Shown: positions 32,586-34,753 of the stretch, piece by piece | Layout of the letters: each line of letters starts with the position of its first letter | How positions within the stretch are numbered: the first letter of the stretch is position 1 | Assembly: GCA_903834145.1 (NCBI GenBank) | Contig: CAILHY010000024.1 | Location: 1 to 64,000, forward strand | DNA length: 64,000 bases | Source of the DNA: an uncultured Actinomycetes bacterium | Lineage (GTDB): Bacteria; Actinomycetota; Actinomycetes; Nanopelagicales; Nanopelagicaceae | Direction: 5' to 3' | Notes under the pieces: generated by a model | The model's input: the letters and a program-made list of their open reading frames with translations, nothing else | The model's database searches: none | Told to the model about the DNA's origin: nothing | Translations under genes and position numbers: made by a program

Positions 32586-32612
32586 TGTAACGCCAGGCTC
32601 CAACAGGTCGTT
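32586..32612 (+). promoter_or_regulatory. Possible ECF-type promoter before the repeat-protein gene
   Basis: TGTAAC, 17 bases, then CGTT resembles the AAC/CGTT pattern of many ECF sigma promoters and lies 38 bases upstream of the ATG at 32651. If real, it would suggest autoregulation by the sigma factor encoded two genes further. A housekeeping promoter around TGTAATAAAG is equally possible. Confidence 0.25.
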
Positions 32613-32650
32613 TAGGTCTGTAATAAAGAGATGCCAACCTGGAGGATTTT

Positions 32651-33097
32651 ATGAAGCAATACCGAATCGTGACCGTACTTATTAGCGCTCTTGTACTGGC
32701 CAGTTGGGGCGCCGCCTCCGCCTCGGCAGATCTTCATAAGCGCGCCAGAACCATTAAAACGGGCAACCCAATCATCGTTGTTCCACATATCGATATCGAC
32801 ACCCGAACGGTCGTTGCCCTGGTGGATACGCGCACGGTTCTCGTCCACGTTGATACAGCAACGGTCCTGCCACGTTTTGATACAAGCACGGTGATTGGGC
32901 ACGAAAGCCAAGAAAGCCAAGAAAGCCAAGAGACTGGAGAGAAGAGCGATGACAATAAAGGCGATGACGATTCCAACAGCGTTGCCACTCTCCCAGCCTT
33001 GGGAACGAAATCTCTTCCAGCCCCAACTCCGACACTTGGCCAACCGCCAAGAAAACAGGAAGTTGACAAGAAATCAACGGAGAAACATAAAGGCTGA
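32651..33097 (+). CDS. Secreted protein with four DTxTV nonapeptide repeats
   Basis: The 148-residue protein opens MKQYRIVTVLISALVLASWG then AASASA, a Sec signal. The mature part has four consecutive nine-residue repeats, DTRTVVALV, DTRTVLVHV, DTATVLPRF and DTSTVIGHE, then ESQESQESQE, an acidic stretch (GEKSDDNKGDDDSNS) and a Pro/Lys-rich tail ending KKSTEKHKG. GGAGG lies eight bases before the ATG. No known family is recognised. It precedes the ECF sigma factor gene across a 12-bp hairpin and is probably its co-transcribed partner or target. A role at the cell surface is inference from the signal peptide. Confidence 0.78.
   Translation: MKQYRIVTVLISALVLASWGAASASADLHKRARTIKTGNPIIVVPHIDIDTRTVVALVDTRTVLVHVDTATVLPRFDTSTVIGHESQESQESQETGEKSDDNKGDDDSNSVATLPALGTKSLPAPTPTLGQPPRKQEVDKKSTEKHKG
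32798..32929 (+). repeat. Coding tandem repeats: 27 bp x 4, then 9 bp x 3
   Basis: Four 27-base units start at 32798, 32825, 32852 and 32879, each encoding a DTxTV nonapeptide with diverged third positions. Three exact copies of GAAAGCCAA follow at 32903-32929. The divergence of the 27-base units suggests an old duplication kept at protein level, whereas the 9-base units look recent. Confidence 0.8.
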
Positions 33098-33109
33098 TTG
33101 GCTAAGGTT

Positions 33110-33143
33110 CCATCCCAGACGTGCCCTCGCGCGTCTGGGATGG
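33110..33143 (+). repeat. 12-bp perfect hairpin between repeat-protein and sigma genes
   Basis: CCATCCCAGACG pairs perfectly with CGTCTGGGATGG around a ten-base loop. It begins 13 bases after the repeat-protein stop and ends 21 bases before the sigma-factor ATG. No T-run follows, so it may attenuate or process the transcript, giving more repeat protein than sigma factor. Confidence 0.75.
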
Positions 33144-33164
33144 CTCTCAGTGAGGAAAGTGGAA

Positions 33165-33749
33165 ATGCAAGCGCACAATCAACTCAATGAACCAAATGAA
33201 CTAGCAGCAGGTGGCGAGATCACCGCAGTTCATCCTGGCGCGCACCCATTTGATTATCTCGTACAGCAAGCCATCACTGGTGATGACGGGGCGTTCACTT
33301 CACTTTGGAGACATTTCAATCCACGGATGGTGCGCTATCTGTCGATGTATACAAATGAACCTGAAGATTTGTGCTCAGAAGTGTGGATCAAAATCGCGGG
33401 AGGCGTAAAGAATTTTGAAGGCGATGCTGCGGCTTTTAAGGGGTGGATTTATACCATCGCTCGAAATGCCGCAACGGACCTAGCTAGAAAGAAGAAGAGG
33501 GTCGGAATTACATTCGAACTCAACGAGAACGACTGGGTCGGCGAAAATTCAACAATGGTTGAGGTCATAGATCTCGTGAAGAGATTACCGAAAGATTACG
33601 CAGAAATTATCCTCCTGCGAGTCGTGGCAGATCTTGATGTCAATGAAGTAGCCGACATCGTCGGCAAGCTTCCGGGAAATGTTCGTGTGCTCACCCACAG
33701 AGGATTAAAACAACTCAACGAAATGTTAACGAATGGCGGTGATCGATAA
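33165..33749 (+). CDS. ECF-family RNA polymerase sigma factor
   Basis: The 194-residue protein has sigma region 2 (TSLWRHFNPRMVRYLSMYTN, then EDLCSEVWIKIAGGVKNFEG and AFKGWIYTIARNAATDLARK) and region 4 (RLPKDYAEIILLRVVADLDV, NEVADIVGKLPGNVRVLTHR). It lacks regions 1 and 3, as ECF factors do. The start at 33165 (MQAHNQLNEPNEL) has GAGG nine bases upstream and removes a long basic, unconserved extension of the frame. The stop overlaps the next gene by one base (TAATG), the usual layout of a sigma and its anti-sigma factor. The ECF subgroup and stimulus are unknown. Confidence 0.9.
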   Translation: MQAHNQLNEPNELAAGGEITAVHPGAHPFDYLVQQAITGDDGAFTSLWRHFNPRMVRYLSMYTNEPEDLCSEVWIKIAGGVKNFEGDAAAFKGWIYTIARNAATDLARKKKRVGITFELNENDWVGENSTMVEVIDLVKRLPKDYAEIILLRVVADLDVNEVADIVGKLPGNVRVLTHRGLKQLNEMLTNGGDR

Positions 33750-34564
33750 TGAAAGATTCAATTAATCCAGAATCCTTTTCGATCGAAGATAGCGAAGAAT
33801 TAATCTCGCAAATCAAAGCAGGAGATGGAATAGCTTCTGGGCCACTTCATGCCGCTTTGAGCGAGCTCTCTCATGTGGCTGATCTGCCAAAAAACGCGAT
33901 TCCACCGATTCTTCCATCAGGTATTAAAGAAGTCATTTATAAAATGCCTGCTGAATTTTCCAAGACTCGCACGGCCGTTGTTTCCTTTATGGCTGTGGCG
34001 CTCCTCGCATCAGCAACGTTAACCGCAGCTGCAGTAACAAACACGGGCCCTGCAGAGTTGGTAAGAGTTGCGCATGAAACAGCAAAATTTGTCAAACAAT
34101 TTGCAGGAACTGTGACTAAGGCCGTGACAGGAAGCAGTAAAAATCCGACACCGTCACAATCAACAGCAGCAACGCCGTCACCAACGCCATCACAATCAAC
34201 AGCAGCAACGCCGTCACCAACGCCATCACAATCACCATCACAATCAACAGCACCTACTGCGAGCGCCACTCCAACTCACACGACTACAACCCCCGCAAGC
34301 GCAGTAGTCGTACCGACAAAGGCTCCAACACCAGAACACTCGGAGAAACCTTCACCGGCGCCGACGAGGAACGAAGAAACTGAGACTCCGAGCCCGACTC
34401 CGACTAAGCCCTTCACTGGACTCACCCCACCACCAGTAGCTAGCGGTGGGGGCGGAGAGAGCGATGATCATGAAGGTTCATCTACGCGGGCACCACGCCC
34501 AACTCGTTCACCCAGTGCGGGAAGTACTCAAAAGACAGAATCAAACTCTGAGAAAGATGATTAG
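33749..34564 (+). CDS. Single-pass membrane protein, candidate anti-sigma factor
   Basis: The 271-residue protein has an N-terminal cytoplasmic part of about 75 residues, one hydrophobic helix (RTAVVSFMAVALLASATLTA, about 72-95) and an external tail rich in Pro, Ser and Thr with 12-residue repeats (PSQSTAATPSPT), ending acidic and basic (NSEKDD). Its coupling to the ECF sigma gene suggests an anti-sigma factor whose cytoplasmic part holds the sigma. No HxxxCxxC zinc motif is present, so it would not be a ZAS-type protein. The low-complexity tail may span the cell wall. The function is inferred from context alone. Confidence 0.8.
   Translation: MKDSINPESFSIEDSEELISQIKAGDGIASGPLHAALSELSHVADLPKNAIPPILPSGIKEVIYKMPAEFSKTRTAVVSFMAVALLASATLTAAAVTNTGPAELVRVAHETAKFVKQFAGTVTKAVTGSSKNPTPSQSTAATPSPTPSQSTAATPSPTPSQSPSQSTAPTASATPTHTTTTPASAVVVPTKAPTPEHSEKPSPAPTRNEETETPSPTPTKPFTGLTPPPVASGGGGESDDHEGSSTRAPRPTRSPSAGSTQKTESNSEKDD
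34151..34258 (+). repeat. 36-bp coding tandem repeat (PSQSTAATPSPT)
   Basis: Two nearly identical 36-base units begin at 34151 and 34187, followed by a partial unit at 34223 and a diverged copy at 34235. They encode the Pro/Ser/Thr tail of the candidate anti-sigma factor. The near identity implies recent expansion and probable length variation between strains. Confidence 0.8.
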
Positions 34565-34574
34565 TTAAAAAGAA

Positions 34575-34682
34575 CTACTTGTCCTTACCTTTTTTCTCTT
34601 GCTTCTTTGCGCGCTTTTCTTTCAGCGACAACTTTGGTTCTTTCTTCTGATTTGCATTGCTCTTTTGTTCTTTGTTAGCCAT
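34575..34682 (-). CDS. Small Lys-rich protein (35 residues)
   Basis: The frame from the ATG at 34682 encodes MANKEQKSNANQKKEPKLSL and ends KKGKDK. About 40 percent of residues are Lys and there is no hydrophobic segment. AAAGGA lies five bases before the ATG, and the frame fills the gap between the candidate anti-sigma gene and the metallophosphoesterase gene. It may bind nucleic acid or the ribosome; no family is recognised. The strong ribosome site and clean frame make it a likely real gene. Confidence 0.7.
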   Translation of the reverse strand: MANKEQKSNANQKKEPKLSLKEKRAKKQEKKGKDK

Positions 34683-34753
34683 GGTGATCCTTTCCCTTTC
34701 AATCCTCACTTAGGAGGAGTCTTGCTCCAGTCTAAGCCAAGAATTGAAAAACT

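Follow-up and report, generated by a model that had tools for sequence, protein, structure and literature searches.

The window, that is, the whole 64,000-nucleotide stretch of DNA analysed here, carries three genes in the same orientation whose products are a secreted protein with DTxTV repeats, an ECF sigma factor and a membrane protein (Table 1). The coordinates and the strand of the three open reading frames (32651-34564) agree with the first-pass annotation of this DNA, and so does the TAATG coupling of the last two genes: the start of the membrane protein gene lies within the stop codon of the sigma gene. Two elements had not been mentioned in that annotation: a promoter motif that ends 38 nt ahead of the secreted protein gene, and a hairpin between this gene and the sigma gene.

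Table 1. Features of the sigma factor operon, in window coordinates
Feature	Position	Strand	Comment
ECF-type promoter of the operon, TGTAAC-N17-CGTT	32586..32612	+	-35 at 32586-32591, -10 at 32609-32612; found in 11/11 orthologous loci and in locus L088 of genus g16
Possible transcription start, invariant A	32622..32622	+	10 nt after CGTT; putative start-site use
Secreted DTxTV-repeat protein, 148 aa	32651..33097	+	Signal peptide, four 9-residue DTxTV units, acidic/basic low-complexity tail
Intergenic hairpin, 15-bp stem, 4-nt loop	33110..33143	+	RNA fold -34.2 kcal/mol, z -4.6
ECF sigma factor, 194 aa	33165..33749	+	Pfam Sigma70_r2 and Sigma70_r4_2 above cut-off
Putative membrane anti-sigma factor, 271 aa	33749..34564	+	TAATG coupling; conserved N-terminus and TM helix, diverged tail (10 orthologues)

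The secreted protein has a signal-peptide-like start followed by four DTx[TS][VA] units with a strict 9-residue period, in agreement with the repeats described by the first-pass annotation. Because this number of units at the strict period was reached in 0 of 5000 shuffles, the repeat count cannot be attributed to chance. Orthologues keep 2-5 units, mostly with a period of 9 or 11. AF2 predicts the protein to be disordered, with the signal helix as the only folded element (pLDDT 50). The family matched no Pfam or NCBIfam model above cut-off, and no known homologue with a clue to function was found.

The hairpin between the secreted protein gene and the sigma gene lacks a T-run after the stem. 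It is strong in the window and in three orthologous loci (L007, L008 and L011) but weaker in two others (L009 and L012); in L013-L016 it was not seen. We infer that the hairpin shifts expression towards the secreted protein relative to the sigma factor, through either protection of the first message or attenuation.

Adjoining the operon on the minus strand is a Lys-rich ORF of 35 aa (MANKEQKSNANQKKEPKLSLKEKRAKKQEKKGKDK; window 34576-34684). What appears to be the antisense of a similar small gene is also found beside the carbonic anhydrase gene in relatives that lack the cassette (L142, L144, L146). The ORF probably encodes a separate, conserved small basic protein.

Conservation of the three-gene cassette

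The genus was sampled in 21 genomes, that of the window included. Eleven of them encode a clear sigma factor orthologue (67-100% identity); the secreted protein gene lies directly upstream in all 11, and the membrane protein gene lies downstream in all 10 whose contig continues. A profile search of the 21 genomes detected the secreted family as a single copy in these 11 genomes, and the others gave no meaningful E-value. The three genes form a conserved unit, kept together in all 11 sigma-positive genomes, so that the idea of the first-pass annotation survives its test of joint retention in relatives.

The cassette is flanked by a carbonic anhydrase gene and, on the other side, by ppx or a permease gene in most loci. 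In seven sigma-lacking genomes examined, the cassette is absent and the flanking genes are 220-320 bp apart. Genus g16 retains the sigma and membrane protein genes; in one of its genomes the carbonic anhydrase gene flanks the pair, and in another ppx does so at the opposite end. These observations fit vertical inheritance of the cassette, with clean losses. A partner with one transmembrane helix and a low-complexity tail also adjoins the sigma gene in distant relatives from four other genera; such a partner is found in genera g6, g14 and g15, whose sigma factors are more distant, and in two loci among these relatives an exported low-complexity gene lies beside the pair. The named relatives are metagenome-assembled genomes of freshwater and groundwater actinobacteria, which is consistent with the "acI" affiliation given earlier.

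One locus shows a peculiar junction (L015:2017-2028, genome G014): the TGA stop codon of the sigma gene is in frame with the start of the membrane protein gene two codons on, and read-through would yield a fusion of both proteins in a single open frame. This arrangement is probably incidental.

The sigma factor and the operon promoter

Two Pfam domains are detected in the sigma protein, PF04542 (Sigma70_r2; 48.1 bits against a cut-off of 24) and PF08281 (Sigma70_r4_2; 36.8 bits against 25.7). With regions 2 and 4 both above curated cut-off, its sequence places it among the ECF (group 4) sigma-70 factors. The best NCBIfam model is that of the BldN family (TIGR02952), which scores 82.1 bits, far below its cut-off of 206.45, and matches all 11 orthologues. 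The ShbA family (NF007230) scores 77.6 bits, again far below its cut-off of 209. Among the sequences in the PDB, the closest match is 6dxo_A, which is an ECF sigma factor. In a tree, the sigma factor groups with true SigD rows, apart from the other ECF factors of the genus (98/92, long branches).

Alignment of the upstream DNA showed that the TGTAAC-N17-CGTT motif is invariant across 11 of 11 loci. When nine diverged loci were compared, including the g16 locus L088, 10 of 10 motif positions were invariant, compared with 1 of 90 flanking positions. This sole invariant base outside the motif is the A at 32622, which may be the transcription start. A generic scan of the plus strand for sigma-70 promoters and terminators gave nothing relevant. 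The motif is of the BldN/SigD promoter type (GTAAC in the -35 element and CGTT or CGAT in the -10 element, 16-17 nt apart): BldN sites read CGTAAC-N16-CGTTGA (PMC2375139), and SigD sites of C. glutamicum read GTAAC...GAT, with PrsdA as GTAAC-15nt-CTCGAT (PMC6338062). As the motif is BldN/SigD-like, the sigma factor scores best with the BldN and ShbA models, and it groups with SigD, TGTAAC-N17-CGTT is very probably recognised by the sigma factor encoded in this operon.

In the 21 genomes, the exact motif is no commoner than a reversed control. Most single matches are therefore due to chance, and we gave weight to positional conservation and to recurrent gene families rather than to genus-wide counts alone.

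The membrane protein as a putative anti-sigma factor

The membrane protein is made of a conserved cytoplasmic part (about residues 1-72), a single hydrophobic segment that would form a transmembrane helix (about residues 75-97), and an outer tail in which Pro, Ser and Thr make up 57% of the residues; the single helix and the Pro/Ser/Thr tail of the earlier description are thus recovered. Among 10 orthologues, the tail drifts in sequence while keeping its composition. The N-terminal motifs (FSxExSEELI..LK....L..L..L.. PP.LPS) are conserved along with the helix, and of the soluble parts the cytoplasmic N-terminus shows the highest conservation (mean column identity of 55% in 12 sequences).

The first-pass annotation had pointed out that the gene occupies the place of an anti-sigma factor and lacks the zinc motif, and both statements stand. 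The gene overlaps the sigma stop codon, and Cys is absent from the protein and from all 10 orthologues, so that there is no HxxxCxxC zinc anti-sigma motif. The protein hence lacks the Hx3Cx2C signature of class I zinc anti-sigma factors (ASDI/ZAS), although the absence of Cys, taken alone, is also compatible with zinc-less ASDI variants. The protein has no domain match in Pfam or NCBIfam, and Pfam gave no match in the 10 orthologues. Assignment to a known domain was rejected, as the profile matches obtained with Pfam, NCBIfam and the PDB were low-complexity or chance matches only. The SigD-binding domain of RsdA (PF16751, RsdA_SigD_bd) has no Pfam match in the 10 orthologues nor in the genome of the window. 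When hhalign was used against true RsdA loci, SEELISQIKAG was aligned with SERFIDALAAG without significance (E 0.24, probability 0.3%), and for this reason membership in the RsdA family is not claimed.

In anti-sigma factors of the RsbN type (ASDIII), helices 1 and 2 bind sigma4 and helix 3 binds sigma2. Two cytoplasmic helices are predicted in our membrane protein by a tethered AF2 model of low confidence (mean pLDDT 57, with 75-90 in sigma region 4 and about 70 in the first cytoplasmic helix). The model was built on L015, where the in-frame TGA was read through solely to tether the two proteins and not to suggest that read-through occurs in the cell; at this confidence it shows no convincing interface between the sigma factor and the membrane protein. 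Judged by its position and its conserved anatomy, the membrane protein is probably an anti-sigma factor.

The statement in the first-pass annotation that no family of this kind had been described needs to be divided. As worded it does not hold, because zinc-free anti-sigma factors with one transmembrane helix are known beside ECF factors, namely RsbN of BldN and RsdA of SigD; for the secreted family it does stand, as no model was matched above cut-off. The SigD-RsdA system of Corynebacterium and the Mycobacteriales resembles the present one in having an ECF gene followed by the gene for a zinc-free, one-TM anti-sigma factor with a long, disordered outer domain rich in Pro, Thr and Ser. Three RsdA loci that we retrieved (L152-L154) display the same layout as the window, with the SigD gene followed by that of a one-TM protein with a Pro/Thr/Ser tail. 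GTAAC in the -35 element is also shared, and sigD-rsdA is autoregulated in several other genera (PMC6338062). In contrast with SigD-RsdA, our membrane protein has neither an RsdA_SigD_bd match nor a significant profile comparison, an additional gene for a secreted DTxTV protein heads the operon, the -10 element is CGTT instead of CGAT, and mycomembrane genes are absent from the proposed regulon.

Similarities with BldN-RsbN of Streptomyces include a nearly identical promoter (CGTAAC-N16-CGTTGA there), BldN as the best-scoring family for the sigma factor, a membrane anti-sigma factor of a fast-diverging non-zinc class, and small surface proteins as the output (chaplins and rodlins in Streptomyces). 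The differences are that the sigma factor scores 82 bits against a BldN cut-off of 206 bits, that the promoter has one more base in its spacer, that acidic proteins predicted to be disordered are exported rather than chaplins, and that the host is a non-sporulating actinobacterium with a small genome. A third parallel is SigI-RsgI of Bacillus, where, as cited in PMC11175481, the disordered outer tail of RsgI has been proposed to sense the state of the wall. SigI, however, is no ECF factor of the present kind, and no match was found between our membrane protein and the RsgI domain. RsdA is cleaved by MarP and Rip1, and its long disordered outer domain has been put forward as a sensor of defects in the wall, in the manner of RsgI (PMC11175481).

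Exported proteins and the proposed regulatory circuit

In the genome of the window, GTAAC-N17-CGTT occurs at 12 sites, and only at this operon does an ORF with a signal peptide lie at promoter distance. In relatives, the motif is found before other exported genes. A second exported family (A4), acidic and rich in Ala, Pro and Thr, has it 29-30 nt before the start codon in each of the four family members that the genus yielded. In a third acidic family (P0004) it lies 58 nt ahead in one genome, and 53 nt ahead, with one mismatch, of a homologue in another. In the g16 operon it lies ~33 nt before an exported acidic gene that is not homologous to DTxTV. The unlinked exported proteins and those of g16 and g14 have a mature pI near 4.1, contain 14-25% Asp/Glu and are almost devoid of aromatic residues; DTxTV orthologues have a pI of 4.3 to 6.5. 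Given the recurrence of the motif before exported genes in relatives, and the signal-peptide ORF of the operon in the own genome, we conclude that the exported proteins are outputs of the sigma factor.

The first-pass annotation had left three roles open for the DTxTV protein: signal, target or cell-wall ligand. The role of target, rather than primarily that of signal, is now favoured, because the promoter is invariant in 11 of 11 loci and recurs in another genus, and because genes for further exported acidic proteins are also preceded by this motif. Were the protein primarily a signal, the exported ligand would meet the anti-sigma tail or the wall and report secretion, wall density or its own abundance, and the sigma factor would respond to ligand feedback. 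Strict one-to-one co-occurrence with the sigma and membrane proteins at a fixed place in the operon would agree with such a role, as would a repeat period that varies with the sigma/anti-sigma clades (9 in L006-L010, mainly 11 in L011-L016). This idea seems unlikely, since the promoter makes DTxTV the first product of its own operon, g16 has a non-homologous acidic protein at the same place, the motif before unlinked exported families fits an output better than a specific ligand, and so diverged an outer tail is hard to reconcile with an obvious lock-and-key partner. Less likely still is a sigma factor dedicated to one exported protein, with the operon as its whole regulon here and DTxTV as an extracellular ligand read by the disordered anti-sigma tail; if that were the case, the cell would meter its own surface coat.

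Autoregulation and the anti-sigma assignment can be questioned as well. The genome contains five sigma-70 region-2 genes, and TGTAAC-N17-CGTT might belong to one of the four others, leaving the operon without autoregulation; a few exact matches do occur in genomes of the genus that lack this sigma factor. We consider this improbable: invariance of the motif coincides exactly with linkage to the sigma gene, BldN and SigD have a published specificity of the GTAAC/CGTT type, and a stricter form, GTAAC-N16-TCGTTNTA, refined after the sites had been seen, has 9 exact matches in the 21 genomes, 8 of which lie in sigma-positive genomes and precede this operon or exported genes. The membrane protein, in turn, could be a wall-anchored structural or accessory protein that is merely co-expressed, the sigma factor being controlled by its own transcription. 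The lack of a recognisable anti-sigma domain, the RsdA comparison without significance and the low-confidence model all lean that way. One would then hardly expect the cytoplasmic N-terminus to be the best conserved soluble part while the tail drifts, nor the gene to be always directly beside the sigma gene with overlapping or nearly overlapping frames, an adjacency that persists in genera whose proteins have diverged beyond sequence detection; hence, this explanation has little probability.

The likely reading is an autoregulated sigma operon of the SigD/BldN type with a zinc-free membrane anti-sigma factor, a disordered outer tail and an exported output. The product of the overlapping downstream gene would hold the sigma factor inactive at the membrane, its short helical N-terminus binding sigma and its disordered Pro/Ser/Thr/acidic tail sitting in the wall. 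A change in the envelope might expose the anti-sigma factor to proteolysis, with a site-2 protease acting last. The released sigma factor would recognise GTAAC-N17-CGTT promoters, of which the first and, in its own genome, the only clear one would drive the operon itself, yielding the exported DTxTV protein in quantity together with more sigma and anti-sigma factor. The DTxTV protein would then be an output at the envelope or surface, comparable to the chaplins in the BldN system. The genome of the window has one M50 site-2 protease gene, and this gene, along with the cleavage of RsdA by MarP and Rip1 (PMC11175481), supports by analogy the idea of regulated proteolysis. Gene order, co-occurrence, promoter conservation, the exported genes with the same motif in relatives, the absence of the zinc motif and the site-2 protease gene are computed results; the contact between sigma and anti-sigma factor, promoter recognition by this sigma factor, release by proteolysis, the kind of signal and the surface role of DTxTV are inferred.

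The regulatory logic, an autoregulated ECF factor with a membrane anti-sigma factor and a surface output, is already known. Within the scope of these searches, the DTxTV family, the other exported acidic families and the divergent anti-sigma lineage appear to be new. For streamlined planktonic actinobacteria, whose sigma factors are few, the proposed circuit offers a concrete, testable switch for surface regulation with a logic akin to that of the BldN-chaplin and SigD envelope systems. The analysis also defines new families of exported disordered proteins and provides a promoter motif ready for regulon mapping. If the anti-sigma tail is indeed a disordered wall sensor, a further lineage becomes available for comparison with RsdA and RsgI.

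Additional exported proteins were observed in relatives. At L059 (G010:C14:8179-8205, minus strand), an exported Ala-rich protein (MEKKKIKVAFVAVLVSTLVGG...) starts 27 nt after TGTAAC-N17-CGTT, and the second exported family is encoded nearby on that contig. At L038 (G014:C1:119892-119918, minus strand), the start of an exported protein with GNDLICGGSGIDKINGQAGNDT-type repeats (calcium-binding RTX-like) lies 97 nt after the motif. In a g15 genome, an exported protein encoded downstream of the sigma/membrane protein pair (L089:28-717, minus strand) contains the stretches IDTSTA, FDTTTT and IDSTTA, and is possibly a distant relative of the DTxTV repeats.
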